Positions 3,001-24,051 of a stretch of DNA of 64,000 bases are shown here, piece by piece. A program made the position numbers and the translations under genes. The DNA comes from Myxococcales bacterium (GTDB lineage Bacteria; Myxococcota; Myxococcia; Myxococcales; Anaeromyxobacteraceae). The DNA lies in contig JAJZQX010000004.1 of NCBI GenBank assembly GCA_021806645.1, positions 248,001 to 312,000 on the forward strand. The letters run 5' to 3'. The number at the start of each line of letters is the position of its first letter. Positions within the stretch are counted from its first letter, which is position 1. Below the pieces are notes generated by a model. It made no database searches, was not told the DNA's origin, and saw only the letters and a program-made list of their open reading frames with translations.

Positions 3001-3671
3001 CCGCGCTGCTGGAGTCGCTCCGCGCCGCCGCCGCGGCCGGCGGACTGGTGGCGGTACCGCTCGCCTTCGCCGGCGGCGTGCTCTCCGGCCTGAACCCGTG
3101 CTGCATCCCGCTCTACCCCGCCGCCGCAGCCACCTGCTGCGCCGGCCCGCGAGACGCGCCCGGTGGCGCGCTGAGGAGCTCGGCCGCCTTCGTCGCGGGG
3201 GTGGCCGCCGCGACGGCGGCGCTGGGCATGCTGGCCGCGCTGGCGGGCCGGGCACTCACGGGGCTGGGCGGATGGGCCTCCTACCTCATCGCGCTCGTCC
3301 CCATCGCCATGGGGCTCCACCTCCTCGGCTGGCTGACGCTGCCGATGCCACGCGCCAGCGCCTCGGCGAAGGCCGGGGGCGCGCTGGGGGCGTTCGCCAG
3401 CGGCCTGCTCCTGTCGCTCGTCCTCGCGCCCTGCGGCACGCCCGTGCTCGCGGCGGTCCTCTCCTTCGCCGCCTACCAGCAGCGGGTCGCCTACGGCGGC
3501 GTGCTCCTGTTCGCCTACGGGCTCGGCGTCGGCCTGCCGATCCTGGTCCTGGGCACCGCCGCCGGCTCGCTGGCGCGCCGCCTCGATGCGCTGGGCTGGC
3601 GGACCTGGGTCGACCGGGCCGCCGGCGCGGCGCTCCTCGCCCTCGGGTTCTACCTGCTCTGGGTGGCGTGA
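2997..3671 (+). CDS. CcdA/DsbD-type membrane thiol reductant transporter
   Basis: A 224-residue integral membrane protein with about six hydrophobic helices and the paired CcdA motifs LSGLNPCCIPLYPAAAATCC (first half) and LAPCGTPVLAAVL (second half). Each holds a reactive cysteine before proline in a pseudo-symmetric hairpin. CcdA proteins carry electrons from cytoplasmic thioredoxin to periplasmic thioredoxin-like proteins. The GTG start overlaps the stop of the upstream thioredoxin-fold gene. Extra cysteines near the first motif (CC and TCC) are unusual and could bind metal. It closes the CadC-MtrA-like operon. Confidence 0.85.
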   Translation: MTALLESLRAAAAAGGLVAVPLAFAGGVLSGLNPCCIPLYPAAAATCCAGPRDAPGGALRSSAAFVAGVAAATAALGMLAALAGRALTGLGGWASYLIALVPIAMGLHLLGWLTLPMPRASASAKAGGALGAFASGLLLSLVLAPCGTPVLAAVLSFAAYQQRVAYGGVLLFAYGLGVGLPILVLGTAAGSLARRLDALGWRTWVDRAAGAALLALGFYLLWVA

Positions 3672-3705
3672 CCCCGGATACCCGTGGGGCACCAGCCATC
3701 AGGCC

Positions 3706-3725
3706 CCCGGCGCCTCCGGGAGTTT
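3706..3725 (+). terminator. GC hairpin after the CcdA-like gene
   Basis: CCCGG (3706-3710) pairs with CCGGG (3716-3720), and AGTTT follows. It is a plausible weak intrinsic terminator ending the 960-3671 operon. Confidence 0.35.
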
Positions 3726-3765
3726 CCAGGTCCCGTCTTGCGACCCGAGGACTAGAGTGAGCCCG

Positions 3766-4551
3766 ATGAAACGCATGTTGAAGGTCATGTTGTACCTGGC
3801 TGCCTTGCAGGCGCCTGCCAGCACCCGGGCAGCGGAGCCAGCGCAGCCACTGCGCGTTGCAGCCGCGGCCGACCTCAAGTTTGCGCTCGACGAGGTCGTG
3901 CTGAAGTACCGGTTGGTGCGCCCCGGCGTCGAGATCGCCCTCGTCTTCGGGTCCTCCGGCAGGTTCTACGCGCAGCTCACCAACGGAGCGCCGTTCGACC
4001 TCTACCTCTCGGCGGACGGGGCCTATCCACGGCGGCTCGTCCAGGAGGGGATCGCCGTGCCGGGCTCGGAGTTTTCCTATGCCATGGGGCGCATCGTGCT
4101 CTGGGTGCCGAAGGAGTCGCTCCTCGCCGTCGAGAGGGACGGGATGAAGGTGCTGCTGTCGGGAGCCGTCCAGCGCCTCGCCATCGCCAATCCCCAGCAC
4201 GCGCCATACGGTAAGGCCGCCGAGGAGGCGCTCAAGAAGTACGGCCTTTACGCTCAGATGAAGGACAAGCTCGTGCTCGGCGAGAACGCAGCCCAGGCAG
4301 CGCAGTTCGCCCAGACGCGAACCGTCGAGGCAGCAATCCTTCCGCTGTCGTTGGCCTCCGCGCCGGCCCTCGCGACGGATGGCCGGTACTGGCTCATCCC
4401 GCTGGAGGCCCATCCGAAACTGGAGCAGGTGGGGGTCCGCATCAAGGCGTCGACCAACCCCGAAGCGGCGAGGCACTTCGCCGAGTTCCTGGCCGGCCCC
4501 GACGGACGCACGATCCTGAAGAGGTACGGTTTCACTCTGCCAGGAGAGTGA
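3766..4551 (+). CDS. modA: Molybdate-type ABC substrate-binding protein
   Basis: A periplasmic binding protein of 261 residues with a signal peptide (cleavage near AAEPAQ). ModA-family hallmarks are LRVAAAADLKFALDEVV, FGSSGRFYAQLTNGAPFDLYLSAD, IANPQHAPYGKAAEEAL and a C-terminal AEFLAGPDGRTILKRYGF. These bind molybdate or tungstate oxyanions. No modB or modC lies nearby, so it must use a distant permease or act as a sensor partner. Proximity to a molybdopterin reductase suggests supply of Mo, but this is inference. The ATG at 3766 was chosen for the signal peptide. Confidence 0.88.
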   Translation: MKRMLKVMLYLAALQAPASTRAAEPAQPLRVAAAADLKFALDEVVLKYRLVRPGVEIALVFGSSGRFYAQLTNGAPFDLYLSADGAYPRRLVQEGIAVPGSEFSYAMGRIVLWVPKESLLAVERDGMKVLLSGAVQRLAIANPQHAPYGKAAEEALKKYGLYAQMKDKLVLGENAAQAAQFAQTRTVEAAILPLSLASAPALATDGRYWLIPLEAHPKLEQVGVRIKASTNPEAARHFAEFLAGPDGRTILKRYGFTLPGE

Positions 4552-4658
4552 GGCGGGCCGACCTCCCGGCGGCATACCGTCGCGCCACTCGCTCCGCCGC
4601 CAAGGACCCGGGTCCCGGCGTGACCGGGGCCCTGGGCGTCCTCCAACTCGCTCCTGCC

Positions 4659-7265
4659 CTATGGTCTCTTGCCGAGCCTCCGCGCGCGCGCGCCCCCCAC
4701 GGCGCCCCGGTCCAGCTGGAAGGCGCCCACCATGGCGGCCAGCTCCTCGGCCTGCCCGTTGAGCTCGCTGGCGGCCGAGGAGGACTCCTCCGCGGAGGCA
4801 GCGTTCTGCTGGGTGACCTTGTCCATCTCACCGACGGCCGTCGAGACCTCGTCGATGCCGCTGGACTGCGCCTTGGCCGCCTCGGTGATCTCCGAGACGA
4901 TGGCGCTGACCTTGCCGATGCCCGTGACGATCTCCCCGAGCTTTCCGGCCACCTGGCGCGAGGTCACCTCGCCCTCCCCGGCCTGCTTGACCGACTCCCG
5001 GATGAGCGCCTCGGTCTTGGTCGCGGCCTCCTTGGACCGGAGCGCCAGCGACCGGACCTCCTCGGCGACCACGGCGAAGCCACGCCCCGCCTCGCCGGCC
5101 CGGGCCGCCTCCACGGCGGCGTTGAGGGCCAGCAGGTTGGTCTGGAAGGCGATGTCGTTGATGTCCTTGATGATCTGTGACGTCCCCTCGGCTGAGGCGC
5201 GGATCTTCACCATGGCGCCCTGCATCTGCTCGACCACAGTCGCGCCCTCCGAGGCCGCCGTGCGGGCTGCGCGGGCGAGACTGTTGGCATGGGTCGCGTG
5301 GTCGGCGGCCTGCCTGGTCATGGCCTCCACCGAGCCGAGGCTGTCGGTGGTCGCCTGGAGCGAGGCCGCCTGCTCGGAGGCACCAGACGCCACGGCCTGC
5401 GAGGAGGAGGCGATCTGCGTGGCCGCGCTCGAGACCTGATCGACCGCGCCGGCCACCTGCGCCAGGGCGTCGTGCAGCGCGGTCGCGGTGGCGTTGAGCG
5501 CCTCCTTGATCTTGGCGTGATCGCCCTGGTAGGTGCCCGCCATCCGGGCTCGGAGATCCCGGTGGGCCAGCTTCTCGAGGACGCTCGTCGCCTCGGCGAT
5601 GGGCTGGAGGATGGCGTCGAGCGTGCGGTTGACGCCATCGACGATCTTCCGGAAGTCCCCGTCGTGCTTGGCGGCGTCGGCCCGAGACTGGAGGCGGCCG
5701 CCCACCGCCGCGTCCACCAGGCCACCGGCGTCGGCCACCAGGCGGTTGATGGCGTCGATGCACCGGTTGAGGCTCTGCTTGATGGCGTCGAAGTCGCCGG
5801 CGTAGCTCTCGGTGATCGGCTGGGGGACCTGCCCTTTCGAGAGCTGGTCCAGGTAGCGCGCCGTCACGTTGAGCGGCCCGATGACGGCGTCGAGGGTCTG
5901 GTTGACGCCCTCGACCACCTTGCGGAAGTCTCCGGCGTGGCGGCCCGCGTCGGCGCGGGTGGCCAGCCGGCCCTCGACGCCAGCCTTCGCCAGCGCGCCA
6001 GCGTCCTCGACCAGCAGGGTCACGGCGTCGATGCACCGGTTGAGGCTCTGCTTGATGGCGTCGAAGTCGCCGGCGTACTGCTCGGTGATCTTCTGCGGGA
6101 TCTGGCCCTTGGAGATCTGGTCCACGTAGCGGGCCGCCACGTTGAGCGGGTTGATGACGGCGTCGAGGGTGTCGTTGACCCCCTGGACCACCTTCCGGAA
6201 GTCGCCCTGGTGACGCCCGGCGTCGGCGCGGGTCGCCAGCTGGCCGGCCACGCCGGCAGTGGCCAGCATCGATGCGTCCTCGACCAGCGCGTTGACCGCC
6301 GCGATGGCCCGGTTGAGGCTCTCCTGGATGGCGGCGAACTCTCCCCGCGCCTCCTCGGTCAGGCGCGGCGGGATGTCCCCCTTGGAAATCTGCTCCACAC
6401 AGGCCGCGGTCGCCCGCAGCGGGCGCACGAGCGCCTCCATCGTCTCGTTGATTCCGTCCACCACCGGCCGGAACTCCTCGTCCAGGTGGTCGGTCTCTCC
6501 CCGGACATCGAGCTGTCCGGCGGCCACCGCCTCCCGGAGGCGCTCCGCCTCGGCCACCAGGGCGCCGACCGTCTTCCCGATCCGCCTCGCCAGGAACCAG
6601 GCCAGGCCGAGCAGGAAGGCCGCCGCGAGGGCAACGGCCAAGCCAATGGTCGCGGTGGACCGGGTCGCTGCCGCCATCCCGGCCTCGCCCGCCTGGCTGG
6701 ACTCGGCGACCGTCCTGGCCCGGGTGGCCTCCATGGCCTCGGCTGCCTTCTGCTGGTGCCGCTCGCCGGCCTGGTAGGCGGTCCAGGCCTGCTTGGCCGT
6801 CTCGGCCACCTCCGGGTCCTTCGGCTCGCGACTCTCGGCCAGGAGGTCGCGCTCCTGCAGGGTGGAGACGGTCCGGTCGACCCCGGCCCGCCATGCCGCG
6901 AACGGCTCCTTCCAGGTGGTCCAGAGGCGCAGGGTCTCCTCGCCATGAGGCAAGGACTCGAAGGTCTTCACGCCCTCGTCCACCCTGGAGAGCTGCTCGG
7001 CGATGGTCGCCAACGCCTTGGCGTGCTCCTCGGTCGAGTTGTCCGGGAGCAGCGCCGTCTTGATGGCCTCGGAGATCTGCCCCTGGGCCCGGTCCACCTG
7101 GGCCAGCGCGACCAGGCTGGGGACGGTCTTGTTGGTCTGGGTCGCCAGGTGCCCCGCGATGGCTCGCGCGCTGTACCAGGCGATGAAACCGACGGCGAGG
7201 AGGATCGCGGTCGCCGCGATCTGGGCGCCCAGGAGCTTCCTGGCGGTGGTGAGCTTGAGCTGCAT
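4659..7265 (-). CDS. Methyl-accepting chemotaxis protein with tandem HAMP-like repeats
   Basis: An 868-residue chemoreceptor. The N-terminus has a transmembrane helix (residues 12-33), a periplasmic four-helix-type sensor (about 35-210) and a second transmembrane helix (about 212-230). A cytoplasmic stack then repeats a module of about 91 residues at least three times (for example [14 protein letters not shown], RADAGRHxGDFRKVV, [10 protein letters not shown]). The signalling hairpin tip includes [19 protein letters not shown] and [15 protein letters not shown], the CheA/CheW contact region. It is 84 bases downstream of the PstS-like binding protein on the same strand, so that protein may be its periplasmic ligand carrier. 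No C-terminal CheR/CheB tethering pentapeptide is evident. Confidence 0.93.
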
Positions 7266-7349
7266 GATGCCCTCGAGACGAGGAGCTGCTGGATGGGGCG
7301 GGTCTGGACGGCCCCTGGGCCGGCCAGACCCTGTGCTTGCCGACCCGGC

Positions 7350-8186
7350 CTAGCGCTTTGCGACGCCGACGAAGTCTTTCTCGACGAACGCCTGCCCCTC
7401 GGGGGTGAGCATGAAGTCGATGAAGGCCTTCGCGGTACCGGACGGAGCGCCCATGGTCGCGAGGTTGAGGGGGCGGCTGATCGGGTAGGTGCCCGCCCGG
7501 ACCGCGTCGTGCGTCGGGGCCACGCCGTCGACCGCCACGGCCTTCACCTTCGCGCGTAGGTCCTTCGCGACGGCCGAGAGCAGCCCGAGACTCGGCGTGC
7601 CGATGGCGTTCGGGTTCTTGGCCACGTCGACGATCTGGTCCTTCGGGAGGTCGATCTCCTTGAACCCGGTGCCGTACGGCGCCTTGTCCATGACGAGCTC
7701 GTTGAACATCTCCACCGTGGCCCTCTTGGCGGTGAGGATCTCGGTGTTCACGGCGATGGGCGCGTCCTTGCCCCCGACCTCCTTCCAGTTCTTGATGGCC
7801 CCGGTGAAGATCCCCTTGAGCTGCGCCTTGGTCAGCTTCTCGACCGGGTTGTCGACGTTCACGAACACCGCGACGGCGTCGTAGCCGATCACCGTGGCGA
7901 CCACGCCCTTGGCCTTCTCGTCGGCCTTGAGGGGCCGGGAGGCGCCGGCCACGTTGGCCTTGTCCGCCAGCAGCGCCTCGATGCCCTTGCCGGAGCCGGG
8001 CACGTCGAGCGCGCCGAACTTGATTCCGGACTTCGCCTCGAAGGCCCGGCGAGCCCCGGCCATCTGGAGGATGGACTGGCCAATGGTGGACGAGCCGCAG
8101 TAGCGGACCTCGTCGGCAGCCTTGGCTGCCGCGGGTGCGAGGAGCAGCGCGGCCAGGACAGCCGCAGACAGGTTGCGTGTGGTCAT
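7350..8186 (-). CDS. PstS-like periplasmic oxyanion-binding protein
   Basis: A 278-residue protein with a clear Sec signal peptide ending near KAADEV. PstS-family features include YCGSSTIGQSILQMAG, IPGSGKG-like LDVPGSGKGIEALL, ASRPLKADEKAKG, LKGIFTGAIKNWKEVGG and YPISRPLNL. PstS proteins bind phosphate; arsenate is a close analogue. No pstCAB follows; a chemoreceptor does. It also follows the molybdo-reductase operon on the same strand, with about 190 bases between. I infer a sensory role rather than uptake, with substrate undetermined. Confidence 0.85.
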   Translation of the reverse strand: MTTRNLSAAVLAALLLAPAAAKAADEVRYCGSSTIGQSILQMAGARRAFEAKSGIKFGALDVPGSGKGIEALLADKANVAGASRPLKADEKAKGVVATVIGYDAVAVFVNVDNPVEKLTKAQLKGIFTGAIKNWKEVGGKDAPIAVNTEILTAKRATVEMFNELVMDKAPYGTGFKEIDLPKDQIVDVAKNPNAIGTPSLGLLSAVAKDLRAKVKAVAVDGVAPTHDAVRAGTYPISRPLNLATMGAPSGTAKAFIDFMLTPEGQAFVEKDFVGVAKR

Positions 8187-8188
8187 GT

Positions 8189-8226
8189 GTGATCCCCCGG
8201 GGGTGGACGTCTCGTCCGGGGATCAC
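8189..8226 (-). promoter_or_regulatory. Inverted repeat at the 5' end of the PstS-like gene
   Basis: GTGATCCCC (8189-8197) and GGGGATCAC (8218-8226) form a perfect 9-bp inverted repeat directly before the start codon at 8186. In RNA the ribosome binding G-tract would be paired, which could throttle translation. If transcription starts at the sigma-54-like site at 8227-8243, the 5' arm would be only partly transcribed and the dyad would act as DNA instead. Confidence 0.4.
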
Positions 8227-8243
8227 TGCAAAGAGGGGGCCGC
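8227..8243 (-). promoter_or_regulatory. Possible sigma-54 promoter for the PstS-like gene
   Basis: On the minus strand GCGGCCCCCTCTTTGCA has GG and GC separated by exactly 10 bases and a good TTGCA -12 element. The -24 element is weak. A linked sigma-54 regulator (15350-16732) makes it worth testing. Confidence 0.35.
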
Positions 8244-8345
8244 AGCTCGAGCAGGCCACTCCATGATCCAGGTCAGGCCCGGGCCAGGTTCGCGATGTGC
8301 TCCAGGCCTTGGGGGGCCTCGACGCGAGCCCCGCCTCCTTCCGCC

Positions 8346-8365
8346 GGGGCGCACGCGGGCGCCCC
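8346..8365 (-). terminator. Hairpin downstream of the reductase operon
   Basis: GGGGCGC (8346-8352) and GCGCCCC (8359-8365) form a 7-bp stem 15 bases after the reductase stop codon. There is no T-run. It may end or attenuate the 12668-8380 transcript. Confidence 0.35.
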
Positions 8366-8379
8366 AGCGGAGCCGGAGG

Positions 8380-11300
8380 CTAGACCCGCACCAGCCGCAC
8401 CCGCGTGTCGTAGAACGACACGCTGCCGCCGACCTTGTCGATAAAGCAGGTGTTCTTGAGGTGCGGGTCGATCCACATCGCGGCGTTGGCGTGGACGCCC
8501 GCGGCGCGCCGCGGGTCGCCCTTCACCAGCATGCCGTCGATCTGTGCGTCGGAGGCGCCGGTGGCCCAGTGGCCGTGGCCGAGCGTGAAGGTGACGATGC
8601 CCGGCCGGATGGTCTCGGTCACCTGCACGGTGCCCACCATGGGCTTCTTGGTCCCGTTCTTGAGGTCCCAGAGGCCGTCCGGGTTGGTCGCCGACACCAC
8701 CTTCACCTTGGAGCCGGTCTTCAGCCCGAGCCGCTTGGCGTCCACCGAGCTCACCAGGATGGGGTTCTCGGGGAGGCTGGAGGTCAGGTAGCTCTGCGTG
8801 ATGGTGCGCGACTTGGTCATGCGGACATCGCGCTGGGTGATGAGGTGCAGGTCGAACCCCTCGATCAGCCCGGTCGGCTCCCGGCCGAGCGTGTCCACCT
8901 GCGGCACGTAGCGGGCCAGGCCGAGGTAGTGCTTCCCGGTGAAGGCGTCCTTCACCTTGGCGGTCTTCTCCTGGTACAGGTTGATGAGCTTCCCGTACTT
9001 GTTGGCGACGTGGTCGCCCTTGTATGAGGCCTCCTGCGTGTCGAAGCGGCCGCCGCGGGTCAGCACGGTCACCACCTTGGGCCACGCCGCGCCGCAGACG
9101 GCCTCCCACCTCGCCTGGTCGAAGACGCTCTTCGGCAGGTGGCGCCGGCTCTCGGCGAAGACCCGCAGGTCCTCGGCCGACGCGTCCGCCACCGGCTCCT
9201 TCCCGTCGAAGGCCACGTTGGCGACCATCCGCAGGTAGAGGTCCTCGGGCCGGCGCAGGTCCTGGCCCGGCCCGAAGCCGTCCTTCCCGAAGCCGGGCAG
9301 GCCGAGCCGGTCGGCGAGCGCCAGCCAGACCGCCTCGTAGGAGATGGGCTGCTCCTCGCCGAAGACCTTCACCACCTCGTTGGGTGAGGCGATGACCGGC
9401 TGCCGGACCGGCTGCACCTTGACCGGCATGTTCGGGTGCGAGCCGTGCAGCTCCCACCGCTCGAGGTAGTGCAGGTCGGGGAAGACGTAGTCGGCGTACA
9501 TCGACGTCGGCCCGACCACGATGTCGCTCGCGAAGTAGAGCGGGAGCTTCTCGAGGTCGGTGAGCGCCTCGACGTTGGTCTGGCCGGCCGGCAGCGCGTA
9601 GGTGGGCGCCGCCATGTAGGAGAAGACCGCCTTGGCGCCGTACGGGTAGGCGTCGGCGATGGAGGGGAGGATCTCCTCGTAGACGTCCGACGAGAGCGGC
9701 CACCAGTTGCGCTTGGCCGGGTACTTGGCCCCCTCGAAGATGGTGGACTCCTCGTACTTGGCGTCGTGCCGGATGATGGAGAGGCCGAACGGCTTCCCCG
9801 TCTTGGGCGTCAGCTTCTTGAAGCTGAAGGGCTGCTTGTCGGTCTTGGTCCCGTCGGCGTTCCAGGTCGAGGCCGCGATCATCCCGCCTGCCCAGTCGAA
9901 GTTGCCGACCAGCAGGTTCAGGTTCATGAGCGAGGAGATGTTGTAGAAGCCGTTGGTGTGCTGCGCCGGGCCGCGGTGCATGTCGATGGCGGCCTTCTTG
10001 CCGTGCGAGGTGAACTCGCGCGCCACCGCCTCGATGACCTTGGGCTCGATGCCGCAGATGGCGGCGTACTCGGCCAGGGTCTTCTGCTGGGCCGCCTCAC
10101 GCATGATCTGGAGGCTGCTCTTCACCCGGACGGTGCCCGCCTGCTCGGCCGGCAGCTCGGCGTCGACGAACAGGTCGCCCTCCACCGCCTCCTTCTCGTC
10201 GTTCGGGTCGAAGGCGACCGGCTTGCCGTCCTTCAGGACGACCAGCCACTCGAAGTCGGACTCCTTGCCGTCCTTGTCCTTGCGGACCTCCTTGGCCTTG
10301 AGGCCGATCTCGGAGGCCCTGAGGAAGCCGCCCGGCTCGCCGTCCTTGCCGAGCTTGACGAGCCACGGGCCGTTCGACCAGGTCGCCTCCTTGTCGGCGG
10401 CGGCGGCGGCCTTGTTGGCGTTTGCCAGGAACTTCGAGTCGAAGCGCTGGTTCTCCAGGATCCAGCGGGTCATGCCCATGGCGAAGGCGGCGTCGGTGCC
10501 GGGCTTCACCGGGATCCAGGCGCTCGGGCCACCCTTGGACGCGAGCTTGGAGAAGCGCGGATCGAGCACGGCGATCTTGAGCGCGCCGTCCACCAGCCGC
10601 TGGGTGATCCGCGGCGTGCGGTTGGGCGGACCGTAGTTGGCGTCGAAGAGGTTGGCGCCCACGAAGACCACGTACTCGGAGTTCTCCAGGTCGGCCTGCC
10701 AGTAGAACTTCTGGCCGTCCTTGAAGCCGTCGCCGGCGTACTGCTCGCTCATCGCCTTACAGGCGAAGTAGAGCGACCCCTGGCAGACGGTGGTGTGGCC
10801 GTGCGCGTTGGCCGTGCCGAAGGCCTCGTAGAACCGCTTGGAGAAGTCGGAGCGCCCGCCCTTCTTTCGCCCCCACATGTAGACGAACTGGTTGTTTCTC
10901 GGGCCGAAGTCGGGGTGGTCGGGGTCGATGAGCTTGTCGAGGTTGGCGGCGTGCTTCGCCTTGAACTCCGCCACCGTGAGCTTCTTCTTGCGGAGCTTGG
11001 CGATGTCGGCCGCCATCTCCTCGAACACCTTGGGATCACGCAGCGCGTACATGGAGGCCAGGCCCGCCACCTCGCGCTGCTCCTCGCCCGGGACGTCGGC
11101 GAAGAGCTTGCCGCCCTTCACGATCTCGTCGATGGCCTGGTCGAAGGGGACCGACTTCCACTTCCCCTCCCCGCGCTTGCCGATGCGCTTGAGGACGCGG
11201 GTGATCCGGTAGGGGTCGTAGGCCCCCTGGTGGCCCGCCTGCCCCTTGGGGCAGATGGCGCCGTCCACCTTGGCCGTGGCGCCGAGCTCGGTCGCCATGG

Positions 11301-11589
11301 GCAGGTGGGGGTTCATCGTCCAGGGGCTGTACGGGTTGCCGTCGATCTTGGCGGCGACCCCGTCCAGGATCTTCACCTTGATGCCGCAGCCGGTGTTGCA
11401 GTTGAGGCAGACGGTGTTGAGCGTGTTCTCGACCTTCCCGAGCTCGTAGAGCTCCTGGGCCGTCAGCTCGCCCGCCTCGGCGCGGGCCACCAGGCCCCGC
11501 GCGAAGTCGAGCTGGGAGAGCGCCAGCGCGCCGCAGCCGGCGGCGCCGGTCTTGAGGAAGTCCCGCCTCGTGGTCCCGCGCTTAGCCAT
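8380..11589 (-). CDS. Molybdopterin oxidoreductase catalytic subunit, TtrA/SrdA/ArrA clade
   Basis: A 1,069-residue exported catalytic subunit of the DMSO-reductase superfamily. The N-terminus has a Tat signal (TTRRDFLKTG). An N-terminal 4Fe-4S site is formed by Cys61-x2-Cys64-x3-Cys68-x44-Cys113. Molybdopterin-binding motifs follow through the chain (PRITQRL, DMHRGPAQHTNG, FPDLHYLERWELHG), and the C-terminus has DPRRAAGVHANAAMW and GGSVSFYDTRVRLVRV, reminiscent of tetrathionate reductase. Canonical ArrA is nearer 850 residues with Cys spacing x27, so arsenate cannot be assumed; selenate, tetrathionate or another oxyanion are equally possible. It overlaps the ferredoxin subunit gene by 8 bases. 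No NrfD-type membrane anchor is encoded, and a triheme cytochrome heads the operon. Confidence 0.9.
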   Translation of the reverse strand: MAKRGTTRRDFLKTGAAGCGALALSQLDFARGLVARAEAGELTAQELYELGKVENTLNTVCLNCNTGCGIKVKILDGVAAKIDGNPYSPWTMNPHLPMATELGATAKVDGAICPKGQAGHQGAYDPYRITRVLKRIGKRGEGKWKSVPFDQAIDEIVKGGKLFADVPGEEQREVAGLASMYALRDPKVFEEMAADIAKLRKKKLTVAEFKAKHAANLDKLIDPDHPDFGPRNNQFVYMWGRKKGGRSDFSKRFYEAFGTANAHGHTTVCQGSLYFACKAMSEQYAGDGFKDGQKFYWQADLENSEYVVFVGANLFDANYGPPNRTPRITQRLVDGALKIAVLDPRFSKLASKGGPSAWIPVKPGTDAAFAMGMTRWILENQRFDSKFLANANKAAAAADKEATWSNGPWLVKLGKDGEPGGFLRASEIGLKAKEVRKDKDGKESDFEWLVVLKDGKPVAFDPNDEKEAVEGDLFVDAELPAEQAGTVRVKSSLQIMREAAQQKTLAEYAAICGIEPKVIEAVAREFTSHGKKAAIDMHRGPAQHTNGFYNISSLMNLNLLVGNFDWAGGMIAASTWNADGTKTDKQPFSFKKLTPKTGKPFGLSIIRHDAKYEESTIFEGAKYPAKRNWWPLSSDVYEEILPSIADAYPYGAKAVFSYMAAPTYALPAGQTNVEALTDLEKLPLYFASDIVVGPTSMYADYVFPDLHYLERWELHGSHPNMPVKVQPVRQPVIASPNEVVKVFGEEQPISYEAVWLALADRLGLPGFGKDGFGPGQDLRRPEDLYLRMVANVAFDGKEPVADASAEDLRVFAESRRHLPKSVFDQARWEAVCGAAWPKVVTVLTRGGRFDTQEASYKGDHVANKYGKLINLYQEKTAKVKDAFTGKHYLGLARYVPQVDTLGREPTGLIEGFDLHLITQRDVRMTKSRTITQSYLTSSLPENPILVSSVDAKRLGLKTGSKVKVVSATNPDGLWDLKNGTKKPMVGTVQVTETIRPGIVTFTLGHGHWATGASDAQIDGMLVKGDPRRAAGVHANAAMWIDPHLKNTCFIDKVGGSVSFYDTRVRLVRV

Positions 11590-12337
11590 AGATCACCTCC
11601 AGCTTCTCGTTCGCCACGTAGTAGACGCGCGGCCCCGTGCCCTTGGGCGCCTTGAGGATCTGGATCTTGTTGGCCTTCTTCACCTTGGCGATCAGGCTCT
11701 GCGGATCGCTCTCGTCGCCGAAGTAGCCCGCCCGCCCGACGCAGGTGGAGATGCACATCGGCAGCTGCCCCTCCTGCAGCCGGTGGACGCAGAAGTGGCA
11801 CTTGCGAGCGTTGCCGATGGGCTGGCTCCCGCCGAGGCGCTGGCGCTTGGTCCCGTACTCGAAGGCGGCGGCCGCCTCGTACGCCTGGGGCGCCGGCGTC
11901 CCGTCGGAGTGGTTGGTGCCGGGGTCGATGGTCCGCGCCTGGTAGGGGCAGGCCGGGACGCACTGCGCGCACCCGATGCACTTGGCGTAGTTGATGACCA
12001 CCAGGCCGTTGGCGGCCCCCTTGGTCTCCTTCCAGGTGGCGCCGTCCTTCCCCTTCACCGGGCAGGCGGCGACGCACGGCGGCTTGTCGCACTGCATGCA
12101 GGGCCTGGGCAGGAAGGTCCGCGTCACCGCCGGGAACTTGCCCTGCTCGTACTCGAAGACCGGCCGGTACCAGAGCTTCGGCGGCAGCTTGTTCTCGGAG
12201 GCGCAGCCCACCGTGCAGGCGTGGCAGCCGACGCACTTGCGGACGTCGATGAGCATGGCCCAGCGGCGCTGCTCGGCGGGCTTGGCCAGCGCCCGCCGCA
12301 GGTCTTCCTGCATGGTGATCAACTTGTCCTGGTTCAT
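11582..12337 (-). CDS. Four-cluster ferredoxin subunit of the molybdo-reductase
   Basis: A 251-residue electron-transfer subunit. The ATG at 12337 is preferred because GAGGAG lies just upstream and MNQDKLITMQEDL follows. Cysteine groups CVGCHACTVGC, CMQCDKPPCVAACP, CIGCAQCVPACP and CHFC...CISTC give the 16 ligands of four 4Fe-4S clusters, as in the B subunits of tetrathionate, arsenate and polysulfide reductases. It has no signal peptide and would be exported with the Tat-carrying catalytic subunit. Its stop overlaps the start of the catalytic gene, implying coupled translation. Confidence 0.92.
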   Translation of the reverse strand: MNQDKLITMQEDLRRALAKPAEQRRWAMLIDVRKCVGCHACTVGCASENKLPPKLWYRPVFEYEQGKFPAVTRTFLPRPCMQCDKPPCVAACPVKGKDGATWKETKGAANGLVVINYAKCIGCAQCVPACPYQARTIDPGTNHSDGTPAPQAYEAAAAFEYGTKRQRLGGSQPIGNARKCHFCVHRLQEGQLPMCISTCVGRAGYFGDESDPQSLIAKVKKANKIQILKAPKGTGPRVYYVANEKLEVIYG

Positions 12338-12371: not shown

Positions 12372-12668
12372 TCACGAGTGGCACTTCTCACAGGCCTTGA
12401 GCTCGAAGGCGCGCTTCCCCTGGTGGCAGGCGCCGCAGGACTTCCCCTTCTCCATCTGCTTCATCGTGAAGCGCTTGCTCTGCGCCACGTCGAGGTAGAG
12501 CTTGGGGTGGCACTCCTGGCAGCCGACCTTGGCCTTCACCACGTGGGCCTGGTGGCTGAAGACCGCCTTGCCGGGGTCCTGGACCGGGAAGGTGATGTCC
12601 CCACCTCCCACGACGGCCATGGCGGGCCCGGCGACGAGGAGCGAGGCGAGGAGGAGGTAGTTCCGCAT
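12372..12668 (-). CDS. c7-like triheme cytochrome
   Basis: A 98-residue periplasmic protein, with ATG at 12668 preceded by AGGGAGC. A signal peptide (LLLASLLVAGPAMA) is followed by three CxxCH heme sites (CQECH, CGACH, CEKCH) and the VFSHQAHV segment that supplies axial histidine in class III / c7 cytochromes. It is the first gene of the reductase operon and a natural periplasmic electron donor to the ferredoxin subunit. That would explain the missing quinol-oxidising membrane subunit. The last heme motif is next to the C-terminus. Confidence 0.88.
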   Translation of the reverse strand: MRNYLLLASLLVAGPAMAVVGGGDITFPVQDPGKAVFSHQAHVVKAKVGCQECHPKLYLDVAQSKRFTMKQMEKGKSCGACHQGKRAFELKACEKCHS

Positions 12669-12720
12669 GCTGGGGCTCCCTTTCCTTCGAAGGCGAGGCG
12701 ATGAGGAGCCTCCAGGCAAA

Positions 12721-12736
12721 GCAAGACTCGGCCCAG
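12721..12736 (-). promoter_or_regulatory. Sigma-54 promoter of the reductase operon
   Basis: On the minus strand the sequence CTGGGCCGAGTCTTGC matches the consensus TGGCACG-N4-TTGC at 13 of 15 positions, with GG and GC correctly spaced. The predicted start at about 12709 leaves a leader of about 40 bases before the cytochrome ATG at 12668. A sigma-54 activator gene lies at 15350-16732. Confidence 0.7.
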
Positions 12737-12878
12737 GCGTGGCAGCCTGCCTCTACGCCGGCGACATCCCTTGCAGCACGGGGGTTTACGGCGACGGCCC
12801 CCGCCGCCGGCCCGGCCAGGCCGACAGGGCACCCCGGGACTGCTCCCCCGGGGAAACACCGGGGAAGGCTTCGGGGCC

Positions 12879-12906
12879 GCCGATGTTTCGTTCAGGGAAC
12901 ATCGGC
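12879..12906. promoter_or_regulatory. Candidate upstream activator site
   Basis: GCCGATGTT (12879-12887) and AACATCGGC (12898-12906) are perfect 9-bp inverted repeats with a 10-base spacer. The symmetry extends imperfectly inward (TC / GG). It lies about 180 bp upstream of the sigma-54 start, where NtrC-type activators bind, and about 50 bp upstream of the divergent binding-protein gene, so it could serve both directions. Confidence 0.55.
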
Positions 12907-12957
12907 GCGCAGTGGCTCTCCCGTGGGCTCGACCGGGCCTCCCGAGATCGGGCTACC

Positions 12958-13890
12958 ATGCTCGGGATGGCCCTGAACACGCCGGCTCGCCTGGCAGGAC
13001 TCGTTCTCGCGATCCTCGCGGCCCTCGGGTGCGTCGACACGCCCTACCCCGAGGTGAAGGTCGACCTGCGCGGCCAGCCGCCCGCGCCGCCGGCGGTGGC
13101 GCCCTCCGGCCCCGTGCTCCGGGTCTCGGTGGCGGCCATGCAGTCGCCCGCCGACACCTACGCCTCCTATTCGCGCTTTCTCGGCCGCATGGGGGCCCTC
13201 CTCGGCGACCAGGTCCAGTTCGTCCAGCGCCGGACCTACGGCGAGGTGAACGACCTCCTCCTCAGCGGGCAGCTCGACGCGGCCCTGGTCTGCACCGGCG
13301 GCTTCCTCGAGCTGGAGAGCCGCCGACCGGGCGCCGTGGAGGTGCTGGCCGTACCCGTCATCGGCGGCAAGACCACCTACCACTCGGACCTGATCGTCCC
13401 GGCGGCGAGCCAGGCCAGGTCGCTCGCGGACCTGGCGGGACGCCGGTTCGCCTTCACCGACGACCTCTCCCTCTCCGGCTACCTCTACGTCGCCAGCCAG
13501 CTCCGCGAACGCGGCCTCGACCACGGGCGCTTCTTCGCCTCCGCCATCTTCACTCGCAGCCACGACCGCTCCATCGAGGCGGTCGCCAAGGGGCTGGTGG
13601 ACGGGGCTTCCGTGGACAGCCTGGTGCTCGAGTCGCTGCTGGCGCGCGACCCAGGGCTCGCCGCCAGGGTGCGGGTGATCCACCGCTCGCCGCCCTTCGG
13701 CGTCATGCCGGTGGTGGCCCCCGTGACCCTCCCGGTGGAGACGCGCCGGAAGCTGGGGGCCGTGCTGCTCGAGCTGCACCTGGACCCCGAGGCCGCGAAG
13801 GCGCTCCAGGCCGTGGGTATCGAGCGCTTCGTGGCGCCGCCGCCCGGGCACTACAGCGACGCGGCCCGGGTGACGGAGCTGGCACGATGA
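12958..13890 (+). CDS. PhnD-like periplasmic binding lipoprotein
   Basis: A protein of about 310 residues with a lipobox (LAALGC) placing it on the periplasmic face. PhnD / phosphate-phosphonate binding features are LRVSVAAMQSPADTYASYSRFL, QLDAALVCTGGFLEL, TTYHSDLIVPA, LAGRRFAFTDDLSLSGYLY and KGLVDGASVDSLVLE. Its stop overlaps the start of the histidine kinase (ATGA). Binding proteins of this type act with kinases in ArrT/TorT-like or TtrS-like sensing, so it likely presents an oxyanion to the kinase. The start at 12958 or 12967 is uncertain. Confidence 0.82.
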   Translation: MLGMALNTPARLAGLVLAILAALGCVDTPYPEVKVDLRGQPPAPPAVAPSGPVLRVSVAAMQSPADTYASYSRFLGRMGALLGDQVQFVQRRTYGEVNDLLLSGQLDAALVCTGGFLELESRRPGAVEVLAVPVIGGKTTYHSDLIVPAASQARSLADLAGRRFAFTDDLSLSGYLYVASQLRERGLDHGRFFASAIFTRSHDRSIEAVAKGLVDGASVDSLVLESLLARDPGLAARVRVIHRSPPFGVMPVVAPVTLPVETRRKLGAVLLELHLDPEAAKALQAVGIERFVAPPPGHYSDAARVTELAR

Positions 13891-15347
13891 GCCCGGTCCG
13901 CCTGCGCCGGCCAGCGCTCACGCTCTGGGCCCGCCTGGCCGCCTTCGCGGCGGTCGGCGTGGTCCTGACCCACGCGGCCCACCTCGTGATCGCAAACCGG
14001 ATCACGAGCCGCAGCCTGGCCAGGGAGCAGGCCGCGCTCGGGCGCAACATCGCCCGCCAGGTGGCCCAGCAGGCCGCCGAGGCGGTGCTGGTGGACGATC
14101 CCCTGACGCTCCACGCGCTGGCCACCGGCGCTGCCGCCGGTGAGGGGGTCGCCTACTGCTTCATCGTGCGCGATGGACGAGTCCTGGCCAGCTCCTTCCA
14201 GGGGCCGACGCCCCCGGCGCTGGTGGCCCTGGCGCCAGCGGGCGACCAGCCGGTGGTGGTGGCGGCCGACGGCAAGAGGTACCTCGACCTTCGAGAGCCC
14301 ATCCTCGGAGGGAGCGCCGGCGAGGTCCGGCTCGGCCTCGACATGGCCATCCTCGGGGCGACCCGGCGGGAACTCGCGCTCCTCCTGGGGCTCCTCGCGG
14401 TGGCCGTGATCCTGGCCGGCCTCGCTGCGGCGCTCGTGGTCGGACGGGGGATCGCCCGGCCCCTCGGCGAGCTGCTCACCGCGGCGGACCGGTTCGACCC
14501 CTCCCGCGACCCCAGCCCCGTCCGGCCCCGTGGCGGCCAAGAGATCGAGCGGCTCGCCCATCGCTTCAACCAGATGATGGCGCGCCTGCGGGCTGCGCGG
14601 CTCGACCAGGAGCAGGCCACTCGCAAGGCGGCGGCGACCGAGCACATGGTGGCCCTCGGCTCCCTCGTCGCCGGCGTGGCCCACGAGGTGAACAACCCGC
14701 TGGCCGGGGTGAAGACCTGCCTGCGCCGGCTCCGGACCGAGCGGCTCCCGCCCGAGACGGTCGACGAGTACCATGAGCTCATGGAGGAGGGCGTCGAGCG
14801 CGTCGAGCACGTCATGCGCCGCCTCCTCGACTTCGCCCGTCCCCAACCCCCGCGCCTCGGCGAGGTGGCGTTCCAGGACCTGGCCAAGGAAGGCGCCGCG
14901 CTCATGGCGCCGATGCTCCACAAGCGGCGCGTCACGCTGCGCCAGGAGCTCGGGGAGCTCGGTGGGGCACGGGTGCTGGCGGACCGGAAGGAGCTCGGGC
15001 AGGCGCTGCTCAATCTCCTGCTGAACGCCGCCTACGTCACGCCGGACGGGGGGGAGCTCCGGATCCGGCTCGTGGAGCGGCCGGGCCACCTGGGGATCGC
15101 CATCGAGGACGATGGCCCGGGCATCCCAACCGAGCTGCGCGCCCGCGTCACCGACCCGTTCTTCACCACCAAGCCCGAGGGTGAGGGGACCGGCCTGGGC
15201 CTGGCCGTCTGCCGCACCATCGCCGAGGCGCACGGCGGGGAGCTCGGGTTCGAGTTCCCTGCACGCGGCACCCGGGTGACGCTCTGGATCCCGGCGGCGC
15301 CGCCGGCGACCCCGGTGGCGGCACCGGCCGCCGCCACGGGCTCGTAG
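13887..15347 (+). CDS. Membrane sensor histidine kinase
   Basis: A 486-residue kinase. Transmembrane helix one (about residues 12-36), a periplasmic sensor of about 130 residues, transmembrane helix two (about 153-180) and a HAMP linker come first. The dimerisation domain has the phospho-acceptor His in GVAHEVNNPL. The ATPase domain has N-box NLLLNAAY, G1 DDGPGIP, F-box FFTTK and G2 GTGLGLAV. The sensor segment is compact, consistent with ligand perception through the co-encoded binding lipoprotein. Its stop is 2 bases from the stop of the convergent response regulator. Confidence 0.93.
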   Translation: MSPVRLRRPALTLWARLAAFAAVGVVLTHAAHLVIANRITSRSLAREQAALGRNIARQVAQQAAEAVLVDDPLTLHALATGAAAGEGVAYCFIVRDGRVLASSFQGPTPPALVALAPAGDQPVVVAADGKRYLDLREPILGGSAGEVRLGLDMAILGATRRELALLLGLLAVAVILAGLAAALVVGRGIARPLGELLTAADRFDPSRDPSPVRPRGGQEIERLAHRFNQMMARLRAARLDQEQATRKAAATEHMVALGSLVAGVAHEVNNPLAGVKTCLRRLRTERLPPETVDEYHELMEEGVERVEHVMRRLLDFARPQPPRLGEVAFQDLAKEGAALMAPMLHKRRVTLRQELGELGGARVLADRKELGQALLNLLLNAAYVTPDGGELRIRLVERPGHLGIAIEDDGPGIPTELRARVTDPFFTTKPEGEGTGLGLAVCRTIAEAHGGELGFEFPARGTRVTLWIPAAPPATPVAAPAAATGS

Positions 15348-15349
15348 CG

Positions 15350-16732
<1,383 letters not shown>

Positions 16733-16779: not shown

Positions 16780-17013
16780 TCATCCCCGCAGCAGCGCCTT
16801 CACGTCCTCCGATGACAGCACCTTGCCGGTGGAGCGCACCGCCCCGTCAACCACCAGCGCCGGCGTCGACATCACCTTGAACTTCATGATCTCGCGGAGG
16901 TCCTCCACCTTCTCGACCGCCACGCCGAGGCCGAGCTCCGCCACGGCCTTCTCCGCCGACACCGTGAGCTGCTTGCACTTGGCGCAGCCGGTCCCGAGCA
17001 CCTGGATCTTCAT
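16780..17013 (-). CDS. Small CxxC thioredoxin-like protein (MTH895/TM0996 type)
   Basis: A 77-residue cytoplasmic protein starting MKIQVLGTGCAKCKQL. The CxxC (Cys10, Cys13) sits right after the first strand, and STPALVVDG carries the cis-proline. This is the small redox-active disulfide protein family, often encoded beside DUF318 permeases as here. It follows the ArsP-like gene by 14 bases. It may hand a thiol-bound metalloid to the permease; that role is inferred. Confidence 0.82.
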   Translation of the reverse strand: MKIQVLGTGCAKCKQLTVSAEKAVAELGLGVAVEKVEDLREIMKFKVMSTPALVVDGAVRSTGKVLSSEDVKALLRG

Positions 17014-17027
17014 GGTCCTGCTCCCTG

Positions 17028-18137
17028 TCAGAGGATGGAGTTGAACAGCCAGCCGGTCAGCATGATCCCGGCGCCGACCACACCCGCGAAGGTTGCGATG
17101 AGGCGGGGCTTCAGCACCTTGCGCAGGATGATCATCTCCGGCAGCGAGAGGGCGATGACCGCCATCATGAAGGCGAGCACGGTCCCGAGCGCCGCGCCCT
17201 TGCCGAGGAGCGCCTCCACCACCGGGATGATGCCGGCCGCGTTGGAGTACATGGGGATGCCGATGAGCACCGCCAGCGGCACCGACCACCAGGCCGACCT
17301 GCCCATGAAGCTCGCCAGGAGCCCCTCGGGCACGTAGCCGTGGATGCCGGCGCCGACCGCGATGCCGGCCACCACCCACGGCCAGACCTTCCCGACGATC
17401 TCACGGACCGCCTCCAGCCCCTTCTCGACGCGGCCGGTGAAGCCGAGCCGCTCCTTCTCGAAGGTCGCCTCGGCCTGCATCGATTCGTAGACCCAGGGCT
17501 CCACGAAGCGCTCCAGCTTCATGCGACCGAGGACGAAGCCGGAGACGATGGAGATGGCGAGGCCGGTGATCAGGTAGAGCGCCGCCACCTTCCAGCCGAA
17601 CATCCCGAAGAGCATGACGAGCGCGATCTCGTTCACCATGGGGGCCGAGATGAGGAAGGAGAGCGTCACCCCGAGCGGGATCCCCACCTCGACGAAGCCG
17701 ATGAAGAGTGGCACCGCGGAGCAGGAGCAGAAGGGGGTGACGATGCCGAGCAGCGCGGCCAGCACGTTCCCCACCGACTCCCGCTTCCCCGCCAAGATGG
17801 CGCGGGTCCGCTCGGCCGTGAAGAACGACCGGACGATGCCCACCGCAAAGACGATGAGCGTGAGGAGCAGCAGCACCTTGGGCGTGTCGTAAAGGAAGAA
17901 GGCCACCGCCTCGCCGAGATGCGAGCCGCGCGCCAGGCCGAAGGCGGTGAAGCTCAGCCACGCCGCGAGCGGCTGGATGGTCCAGTAGGCGGCGGTCCAG
18001 ACGGCCAGGCCGAGGACCAGGGAGGCGGCGGTCGCCAGGGTCCGGGAGCGGGGAGGCTCGCCGGGCTTCAGCCCCTCCCACGGGTTGGTGCAGCACGCAG
18101 CGGGCTTCACGTCGGTCTCGGAGAGAGGGAGGCTCAT
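17028..18137 (-). CDS. arsP: ArsP-type (DUF318) metalloid permease
   Basis: A 369-residue membrane protein with eight or more predicted helices. The family motif TPFCSCSAVPLFIGF, with a Cys-Ser-Cys in a membrane helix, and GIPMYSNAAGIIPVVEALL are diagnostic for DUF318. Characterised ArsP members export trivalent organoarsenicals. The N-terminal ACC adds two cytoplasmic cysteines. The ATG at 18137 is chosen over an upstream in-frame ATG because it starts a compact N-terminus. It lies within a trx-ccdA-arsP-trx operon divergent from the ars operon. Organoarsenical specificity is inferred from the family. Confidence 0.85.
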   Translation of the reverse strand: MSLPLSETDVKPAACCTNPWEGLKPGEPPRSRTLATAASLVLGLAVWTAAYWTIQPLAAWLSFTAFGLARGSHLGEAVAFFLYDTPKVLLLLTLIVFAVGIVRSFFTAERTRAILAGKRESVGNVLAALLGIVTPFCSCSAVPLFIGFVEVGIPLGVTLSFLISAPMVNEIALVMLFGMFGWKVAALYLITGLAISIVSGFVLGRMKLERFVEPWVYESMQAEATFEKERLGFTGRVEKGLEAVREIVGKVWPWVVAGIAVGAGIHGYVPEGLLASFMGRSAWWSVPLAVLIGIPMYSNAAGIIPVVEALLGKGAALGTVLAFMMAVIALSLPEMIILRKVLKPRLIATFAGVVGAGIMLTGWLFNSIL

Positions 18138-18174
18138 CGGTCTGCTTTCGGGTCCGGTTCGGGCGAGTCGGGGA

Positions 18175-18876
18175 TCAGGTCGCCGTGTAGAGGAAGTAGA
18201 GGCCACCCGCGATGACGGCCAGGCCGGCGCCGCCCTTCACGAGCACGGCGGCACGGGCCCCCGCCTTCCATGAGAGCCAGCGCTGGACGTTCTGGGCCGA
18301 GGCGCCGGCGACCACGATGGCGGCCGAGTGCCCCAGGCCGTAGAGCAGCACGAGGAGCACGCCGTAGGCGGCCTGGCCGGCGCCGGCGCGGAAGGCGAGC
18401 CCGAGGAGCGGCGCCATGAAGGCGAAGGTGCAGGGACCGAGGGCGGCACCGAAGACCAGCCCCAGGACGAGGGCTCCCCCCGGCCCCTTCCTGGTCGCGC
18501 TGGCCGGCAGGGCAGACCAGGACGGCAGCGGCAGGAGGCCGAGGAGGTTGAGCCCCACCGCGAAGAAGACCGCGGCCAGCGCGTAGGTGCCCCAGGGCCC
18601 CACGTCGCCCGCCATCCGGCCGGCCGCCACCGTGGCGGCCCCGATGACCGCGATGCTGCCGAGGATCCCGAGGGCGAAGCTCCCGGAGAGGACCACGGCG
18701 CGCCGCCCCGTGGGCAGCTCTTCGCCGCCGCCCATGTACGCCACGACCAGCGGGATGCTGGAGAGGTGGCAGGGCGAGAGGACCACCGAGAGCAGCCCCC
18801 ACAGGAACGCGGCCGGGAGGGCCAGCGCGGCCGAAGCCTCGAAGGCCCGGCCAAAGGCGGTGAGGAGCTCGACCAC
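18175..18876 (-). CDS. CcdA-type membrane thiol transporter (ars-linked)
   Basis: A 233-residue protein with about six helices and the CcdA cysteine motifs VVLSPCHLSSIPLVVAYMGGG and GAALGPCTFAFMAPLLGL. The GTG start at 18876 lies 10 bases after the stop of the periplasmic thioredoxin, so they are co-expressed. It should pass reducing power from the cytoplasm to that thioredoxin. It is diverged from the CcdA-like protein at 2997 but has the same partner arrangement. Confidence 0.87.
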   Translation of the reverse strand: MVELLTAFGRAFEASAALALPAAFLWGLLSVVLSPCHLSSIPLVVAYMGGGEELPTGRRAVVLSGSFALGILGSIAVIGAATVAAGRMAGDVGPWGTYALAAVFFAVGLNLLGLLPLPSWSALPASATRKGPGGALVLGLVFGAALGPCTFAFMAPLLGLAFRAGAGQAAYGVLLVLLYGLGHSAAIVVAGASAQNVQRWLSWKAGARAAVLVKGGAGLAVIAGGLYFLYTAT

Positions 18877-18886
18877 CGGGGCCTCC

Positions 18887-19282
18887 CTAGAAGCTCACGC
18901 CGACGGCCTTCCACTGGGCCAGGATGTCGTCCTTGCCCATGAATCCCTGGTGGCGGGCCAACTCCTTGCCGTCGGCGCCGAAGAAGATCTGGGTGGGGAT
19001 CATCCGCACGCCGTAGGCGTCGGCGGCGTCGCGGTTCTTCCAGACGTCGATGAACTCCACCTGCATGCGGCCCGAGTACTCGACCTTCAGCCCCTCCAGG
19101 ATGGGGGCCATCGCCTTGCACGGGATGCAGCCAACCGAGCCGAGGTCGAGGAGGCGGGGTGTGCCGCTGGCGTCGACCGGCGCGTCCGCCCGGGCGACGC
19201 TGCTCGAGCGCTGGCAGGCCGGCAGGGCCACCAGCGTCATCAAGCCCAGGGCTAGCACCCCGGCAAAGAACGGCTTCTCCAT
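18887..19282 (-). CDS. Periplasmic thioredoxin lipoprotein
   Basis: A 131-residue protein with a lipobox (LVALPAC, Cys23). The thioredoxin domain has active site Cys52-Ile-Pro-Cys55 (GSVGCIPCKAM), followed by VEFIDVWKN and the cis-proline MIPTQIFFGADGKEL. It is first in the minus-strand operon and is probably reduced by the following CcdA. Candidate clients are ArsP, or oxidised metalloid-thiol species in the periplasm. Confidence 0.88.
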   Translation of the reverse strand: MEKPFFAGVLALGLMTLVALPACQRSSSVARADAPVDASGTPRLLDLGSVGCIPCKAMAPILEGLKVEYSGRMQVEFIDVWKNRDAADAYGVRMIPTQIFFGADGKELARHQGFMGKDDILAQWKAVGVSF

Positions 19283-19350
19283 GTGCGCCTCCTGGAAGCG
19301 GGGTCGTCCCGCCGCGCTCCTGGACTAGAGCGCGCCGACGGGCGAACGGT

Positions 19351-19370
19351 TCATCGCTTAGCATCGATGA
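19351..19370. promoter_or_regulatory. ATCG-type dyad upstream of the thioredoxin operon
   Basis: TCATCG (19351-19356) and CGATGA (19365-19370) form an inverted repeat with an 8-base spacer, about 70 bases upstream of the leftward thioredoxin start. It resembles the dyad before arsR at 19656-19671 and may be a second ArsR site controlling the divergent operon. Confidence 0.4.
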
Positions 19371-19441
19371 TCGTCCGCGCCCAGCCTGGCAGGGCGGCCG
19401 TGATGTCGCAGGCCCGGTTCCGTCGGGCTGGTCGCAGGCGC

Positions 19442-19558
19442 CTACTGGCGGTGGCCGCGGGTCACCAACCGGATGAACACGGCCAGGAGCGCGATGAGCG
19501 AGGTCCAGACGACGATTGCCAGACCCCACATCTCCCTCTGGGAAGCCAGGTCGGTCAT
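19442..19558 (-). CDS. Possible 38-residue single-helix membrane protein
   Basis: A short frame in the divergent intergenic region starts MTDLASQREMWGLAIVVW. It has one strong hydrophobic helix (LAIVVWTSLIALLAVFI) and ends RGHRQ. I see no clear ribosome binding site. It may be a genuine small membrane protein or chance. Confidence 0.3.
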   Translation of the reverse strand: MTDLASQREMWGLAIVVWTSLIALLAVFIRLVTRGHRQ

Positions 19559-19655
19559 GGCAGGTGCCTAGCGGGGGCGGTTCCGCGGCGCGTGGTCGCC
19601 CGGGTGACATGTTGGTGACGAGCGGCGTGAACGGGGTTGCGGCGGTCCGACTGCC

Positions 19656-19671
19656 ATCGTAAGACCACGAT
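19656..19671. promoter_or_regulatory. ArsR operator candidate before arsR
   Basis: ATCGT (19656-19660) and ACGAT (19667-19671) form an inverted repeat with a 6-base spacer, ending 2 bases before the arsR start codon. Size and spacing fit ArsR-type half-sites. Autorepression is inferred. Confidence 0.45.
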
Positions 19672-19673
19672 TC

Positions 19674-20024
19674 ATGGCGACCCCGCTCAAGAAGTCGGCC
19701 TGCGTACCCACGCCTCCGCTGGATGAGACACCGGACTTGCGCCCCATCGAGGGGCCAGAGGCCGATGAGGAGCTGGCCGCGCTCGCCAAGGCCGTGGGCC
19801 ACCCGGCCCGGGTCCAGATCCTCCGGCTCCTGGTCCGCCGCGAGTCCTGCATCTGCGGAGACATCGTGGACGAGTTGCCCCTGGCCCAGTCCACCGTCTC
19901 CCAGCACCTCAAGGTGCTGAAGGAGGCCGGGCTCATCCGCGGCGAGATCGACGGGCCGCGCGTCTGCTACTGCATCGAGCCCCGCACCCTGCGCCGCCTG
20001 AAGGCGCTCATCGGCAGCCTCTAG
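19674..20024 (+). CDS. arsR: ArsR-family arsenite-responsive repressor
   Basis: A 116-residue winged-helix regulator. The sensor motif [11 protein letters not shown] (Cys59, Cys61) precedes the recognition helix [18 protein letters not shown], and a second pair Cys98-Tyr-Cys100 sits in the wing. Cysteines near the DNA-binding helix are typical of As(III)-responsive ArsR. The gene heads the operon with acr3, arsC, arsD, arsA and arsC; acr3 starts 10 bases later. It differs from the CadC-like regulator at 960, which has an extra N-terminal cysteine pair. Confidence 0.92.
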
Positions 20025-20034
20025 GAGCCCCACC

Positions 20035-21605: not shown

Positions 21606-21620
21606 ACCACGGAGAACGCC

Positions 21621-22274: not shown

Positions 22275-22281
22275 GGGGCCG

Positions 22282-24021: not shown

Positions 24022-24051
24022 GACACCCCACCTCTGGAGAGGAACCATGCG

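Follow-up and report, generated by a model that had tools for sequence, protein, structure and literature searches.

The closest described counterpart of the locus analysed here is the PstS-CtpL system of Pseudomonas aeruginosa, in which a PstS-family protein signals via CtpL, a chemoreceptor to which the ligand does not bind directly; PstS docks on CtpL with 1:1 stoichiometry and a KD of 3.7 μM (PMC4926252). However, that PstS is a transporter subunit encoded with pstCAB, and ctpL lies at a separate locus. In Agrobacterium tumefaciens GW4, a chemoreceptor gene (mcp) lies beside an oxyanion molybdo-enzyme accompanied by a trio of binding protein, kinase and regulator, i.e., the aio genes (PMC5335332). 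Binding proteins encoded next to sensor kinases also signal by docking, although these belong to other protein families and their receptors are kinases rather than a chemoreceptor (PMC11113362, PMC9602780). Finally, Salmonella moves to respiratory electron acceptors such as tetrathionate by energy taxis (PMC3630101).

Here we analysed a 64,000-nt stretch of the genome of a Myxococcales bacterium from the Anaeromyxobacter family (the window), in which, unlike the P. aeruginosa case, a separate PstS-like protein is encoded without transporter genes, is paired with a chemoreceptor gene and has lost the phosphate-binding arginine (Table 1). As the original prediction had it, the PstS-type gene is followed by a chemoreceptor gene with no ABC transporter, and the pair lies directly downstream of a molybdo-reductase operon on the same strand. 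Both open reading frames are present on the minus strand, there are no ABC permease or ATPase genes in the pair or its immediate neighbours, and the reductase gene lies 193 bp upstream of the binding-protein gene. Energy taxis in Salmonella reportedly uses general receptors that are not encoded with the reductase, and no dedicated binding protein. The further statement that no system of this layout had been described needs qualifying; the exact layout does differ from those known, but PstS-CtpL (PMC4926252) and the aio-linked mcp (PMC5335332) come close.

We consider it probable, although well short of certain, that the pair is a self-contained sensory cassette, i.e., a sensor-dedicated binding protein that would feed its own receptor, and that it came to lie beside the reductase via an arsenic/respiration island. 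The precedents for signalling from binding protein to receptor (PMC4926252, PMC9602780) count in favour of this reading.

Table 1. Features of the pair and of the adjoining reductase locus, with positions in the window
Feature	Position	Strand	Details
Chemoreceptor	4659..7265	-	868 aa; 4HB_MCP_1, HAMP, four HAMP_2, MCPsignal
Hairpin between binding-protein and chemoreceptor genes	7280..7349	-	13-bp interrupted stem; -36.3 kcal/mol, z -2.9 (RNA fold)
PstS-like periplasmic binding protein, sensor-associated clade	7350..8186	-	278 aa; ORF and PF12849 match
Inverted repeat over likely ribosome site of binding-protein gene	8187..8226	-	GTGATCCCC...GGGGGATCAC
Weak sigma-54-like promoter site	8227..8242	-	CGGCCCCCTCTTTGCA, 56 nt before binding-protein start
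Strong hairpin at reductase gene end	8310..8390	-	-56.8 kcal/mol, z -2.9; no U tract
TtrA-like molybdopterin reductase, TAT signal	8380..11589	-	profile search
4Fe-4S subunit, TtrB-like	11582..12337	-	profile search
Triheme c7 cytochrome	12372..12668	-	TIGR04257, E 3.8e-26
Sigma-54-like promoter, reductase operon	12720..12735	-	similar position in five orthologous loci
Two GTT-N10-AAC operator-like sites	12842..12900	.	43 bp apart, first with one mismatch; pattern search
PhnD-like binding protein	12952..13890	+	PF12974, E 1.7e-55
Histidine kinase	13887..15347	+	profile search
Sigma-54 response regulator	15350..16732	-	profile search

The PstS-like protein and its receptor

The binding protein has an N-terminal signal-like stretch and matched PF12849 (PBP_like_2) with an E value of 3.5e-39 in a profile search. 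However, it missed the curated PstS cut-offs of TIGR02136 (153.6 bits versus 206.6) and TIGR00975 (32.2 versus 205). An AlphaFold model gave a confident fold (pLDDT 92.9), for which the best matches in the PDB were phosphate-binding proteins (4q8r, 4gd5 and 4n13); that the closest solved structures bind phosphate counts against the reading favoured here. The first-domain motifs GSST, GSGKG and ASR are retained, and the single cysteine of the protein, Cys30, lies within the first ligand loop.

Profile searches identified both a four-helix-bundle periplasmic domain and an MCP signalling domain in the receptor, which also has two hydrophobic, transmembrane-like segments at about residues 10-38 and 203-229. 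Its gene lies 84 bp downstream of the binding-protein gene on the same strand, and the hairpin in this gap may hold the binding protein in excess over the receptor. Convergent with the chemoreceptor gene is a gene for a ModA-type molybdate-binding protein (3775-4551), with no modBC adjoining.

Upstream of the pair, the inverted repeat gave an RNA fold of -21.9 kcal/mol (8183-8230; z -2.75), and is a possible element of translational control or a possible operator. When the window was searched for this repeat at one fixed spacing, the sole match was an unrelated site with three mismatches, the source site itself being missed. An E. coli-type Pho box was not seen 5' of the pair, nor clearly 5' of the genome's own pstS, so the E. 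coli consensus is uninformative here.

Gene neighbourhoods and ligand loop of the clade

A maximum-likelihood tree of 45 sequences placed the binding protein within a clade of 21 (support 97/92) that spans Myxococcota, Desulfobacterota-type genomes and Nitrospirota. Its closest relatives are from Thermodesulfovibrionales of the Nitrospirota (60% identity), Desulfuromonadales (58-61%) and Pelobacter (52%), and those from Myxococcota are more distant, at 49% identity at best. Gene maps were drawn from gene calls made by our own script, with neighbourhoods spanning about 2-9 kb per side and some contigs ending early. In these maps a chemoreceptor gene adjoined the binding-protein gene in 16 of the 21 members (the window, L034, L035, L036, L037, L039, L040, L041, L042, L043, L044, L046, L105, L106/L277, L270 and L271), lying upstream of it in L271. 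The L105 contig ends within the receptor gene, which was identified from the N-terminal periplasmic domain of its product, 44% identical to that of L106; the receptor of L270 was read directly from the frame. Among the remaining members, a hybrid histidine kinase takes the place of the chemoreceptor in one (L272). Three (L038, L107 and L269) have no adjoining sensor gene and one neighbourhood (L045) is ended by a contig edge; these four count against a dedicated cassette. None of the 21 has pstCAB beside the binding-protein gene, whereas pst transport genes come next in the canonical relatives in the tree.

Because the pairing recurs in so many members and in several phyla, the adjacency goes beyond chance. 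The periplasmic domains of the receptors are also homologous across phyla, in one group comprising the window, L034 and L035 and another comprising L105, L106, L036, L037, L039 and L040, which is the pattern expected of a pair held together by function. As the window's binding protein groups with those of L105 and L106 while its receptor groups with those of L034 and L035, partners may have been exchanged between lineages. These comparisons support the view that binding protein and chemoreceptor are a pair kept together in evolution, rather than the remains of a broken transporter. A decayed or moonlighting transport protein, with a chemoreceptor gene as its chance neighbour, would account for the lost binding residues described below and for the few clade members in which no sensor gene adjoins. 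However, both frames of the pair are intact and the pairing is conserved across phyla, so that we regard this explanation as very improbable.

In PhoX of X. citri, phosphate is contacted by Ser34, Ser62, Asp80, Arg159, Gly164, Thr165 and Asn201 (PMC5439949). Our alignment, on which the equivalence of the arginine and loop positions rests, showed the loop arginine and a Ser-Gly-Thr motif in all 13 canonical relatives. The phosphate-gripping arginine was absent from every one of the 21 clade members, all of which had a two-residue insertion in the loop; the window's loop reads TEILTAKRAT, with AKRAT where the canonical sequence has SSGT. Since the arginine and the Ser-Gly-Thr elements have been replaced, the ligand is probably something other than plain phosphate. 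Ser-Gly was retained in the loop of only 8 of the 21, which counts against a change of ligand in the cassette, and because of which some anion site may survive in the clade. The absence of a permease partner, together with replacement of the phosphate-gripping residues, argues for departure from a transport role. The protein thus looks like a Venus flytrap of the PstS type but lacks hallmarks of a PstS that serves phosphate transport, in that the fold matches while the arginine and Ser-Gly-Thr loop, the family cut-offs and pstCAB do not.

The same residues bear on phosphate taxis, in which a protein still able to bind phosphate would present its ligand to the receptor, on the model of PstS and CtpL in P. 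aeruginosa. That system is an established case (PMC4926252), and the fold, its closest solved relatives and the intact first-domain motifs all fit. Nevertheless, given the loss of the second-domain arginine throughout the clade, the loop insertion and the lack of a pstCAB partner, we judge phosphate taxis to be rather improbable. Counting for a self-contained cassette instead is that the genome has a separate and complete phosphate system, pstS-pstC-pstA-pstB-phoU, on a different contig.

The reductase operon and arsenic genes beside the pair

The best-matching family of the reductase is TtrA, but at a score of 465 against a cut-off of 1750. Enzymes that reduce tetrathionate, selenate or arsenate belong to the same lineage (TtrA/SrdA/alternative arsenate reductase; PMC10100899, PMC7331816). 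ArsE-like and ArsP-like genes lie at 16.8-18.1 kb, and an ars operon (arsR, acr3, arsC-like, arsD, arsA and a second arsC-like gene) at 19.7-24.5 kb. The presence of arsenic genes around the reductase makes a compound of arsenic or antimony plausible as its acceptor. The arsenic island (16780-24546) encodes an ArsE-like thioredoxin, an ArsP-like permease and a DsbD-like protein, followed by the ars operon. Elsewhere in the window, an MtrA-like (tetrahydromethanopterin S-methyltransferase subunit A) and DUF4346 protein is encoded beside an ArsR regulator (1371-2531), in a myxobacterium, and insertion elements of the IS21 and IS66 families lie at 27837-30075 and 47319-49043, in the metal-resistance part.

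This context is the ground for oxyanion taxis, in which the anion reduced by the adjacent enzyme, whether arsenate, antimonate, selenate or tetrathionate, would be bound by the PstS-like protein, and cells would be steered to it by the receptor. In its favour are the closeness of the reductase on the same strand and a lineage known to act on such anions (PMC10100899). The ars genes of the window also fit. So do the reductase-locus stretches from elsewhere, 12 of 45 of which have ars-type genes, and a close relative of the pair (L106, 5989-10692) that runs straight into arsR-arsC-acr3. However, ars genes were found near 2 of the 20 other clade loci and 4 of 83 canonical loci, with no clear excess, and a general link of the binding-protein clade to arsenic was rejected.

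Precedent for oxyanion taxis comes from GW4, whose mcp, beside the aio genes, mediates arsenite taxis (PMC5335332). The window's reductase locus resembles that system, with its own trio of PhnD-like protein, kinase and regulator, encoded beyond the reductase as seen from the pair; neither this trio nor the ars operon figured in the original prediction. In all five orthologous loci a sigma-54-like promoter lies 62-79 nt before the first gene of the reductase operon. Paired GTT-N10-AAC sites, 43-44 bp apart, are present in four of the five (the window, L185, L186 and L189), although in the window and L189 one of the two sites is degenerate; GTT-N10-AAC is the published AioR consensus, and the aio operator resembles the sites before the window's operon (PMC5335332). 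In L186 such pairs also precede two other genes, one of them porin-like. A stricter form of the operator, GTTWC-N6-GWAAC, had only two other palindromic matches in an exact search of the whole genome.

The 500 bp preceding the pair contained no GTT-N10-AAC site, and an operator shared by reductase and pair was rejected for this reason. By contrast, in GW4 arsenite is bound by the receptor itself, and the receptor gene has an AioR site (PMC5335332). The reductase and the pair are also separated by the strong hairpin, a possible terminator after the reductase stop codon. The weak sigma-54-like site before the pair would fit control shared with the reductase, and to that extent favours oxyanion taxis and counts against the cassette. 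Its p value was about 0.04 against random stretches of the window, using site weights of our own, and the window as a whole contained 16 such sites where 16.65 were expected, i.e., no excess over chance.

Surveys from both sides led us to reject a conserved link between pair and reductase. In a neighbourhood survey of the clade, this reductase was beside none of the other loci. Conversely, orthologues of the reductase occur within the family in G048 (87% identity), G037 (79%), G034 (77%) and G047 (55%), and G048, G037 and G047 keep the Fe-S subunit and the trio of PhnD-like protein, kinase and regulator without the pair. In the phylum of genome G196 (395 genomes searched), none of 40 reductase-locus stretches, some of them cut by contig ends, contained a chemoreceptor gene. 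No other copy of the pair beside such a reductase turned up in these surveys; one of 45 other reductase-locus stretches had a chemoreceptor gene, and its companion was a PhnD-like rather than a PstS-like binding protein. The pair's position beside an oxyanion-respiration operon therefore looks like a one-off, and its link to the reductase is weak.

That single exception, in G034 (L188, G034:C101), favours oxyanion taxis as an idea. Here the reductase gene (3323-6526) has directly downstream, on the opposite strand, genes for a chemoreceptor and a PhnD-like binding protein (6651-9123). The chemoreceptor (527 aa) has a 4HB/TarH-like domain, and the PhnD-like protein is 41% identical to that of the window. 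As a candidate for oxyanion taxis, this arrangement is stronger than the window's pair. The reductase lineage is thus found twice beside a chemoreceptor and a binding protein, with binding proteins of different families; two such cases make no rule, yet they keep the idea of oxyanion taxis alive.

Possible signalling route and its meaning

The genome (a 4.14 Mb assembly, 98.99% complete) has ten MCP-domain genes, 14 CheW domains over the cut-off, several CheW clusters and several PilT-family (pilus) ATPases, and no match to the flagellin domain PF00669. In the absence of flagellin, any taxis would need type IV pili, and with PilT-family ATPases present the signal would act on pilus motility or on a pathway outside motility. 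The original prediction that the pair may steer cells to the reductase's acceptor is not supported, given the lack of flagellin, the occurrence of the pair elsewhere without the reductase and the absent operator, and we now think oxyanion taxis unlikely. Likewise unlikely, in our view, is a more specific form in which the PstS-like protein would have been re-tooled to the reductase's oxyanion (arsenate, antimonate or a related anion) and would drive pilus-based steering to the acceptor, with the PhnD-like version in G034 as a parallel.

For a self-contained sensory cassette, the following route can be proposed. The secreted PstS-like protein would bind a small ligand in the periplasm and, once closed and loaded, would dock on the receptor's four-helix periplasmic domain, much as PstS does on CtpL. 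A poly-HAMP relay would then carry the signal to the domain that controls the kinase, and from there it would reach one of the CheA/CheW arrays that the genome encodes. The likely output would be either movement by type IV pili or a chemosensory pathway unrelated to motility. The cassette would have landed in the arsenic/respiration island without being a conserved part of the reductase operon.

The clade thus consists of relatives of phosphate-binding proteins that have apparently been re-tooled for signalling and that accompany chemoreceptors in several phyla. They are readily labelled as phosphate transporters; if their ligands differ, many "PstS" labels would be wrong, and a group of chemoreceptors would gain a handle on what is sensed. 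Whether bacteria have dedicated taxis systems toward toxic respiratory oxyanions could also be tested cleanly at this locus.
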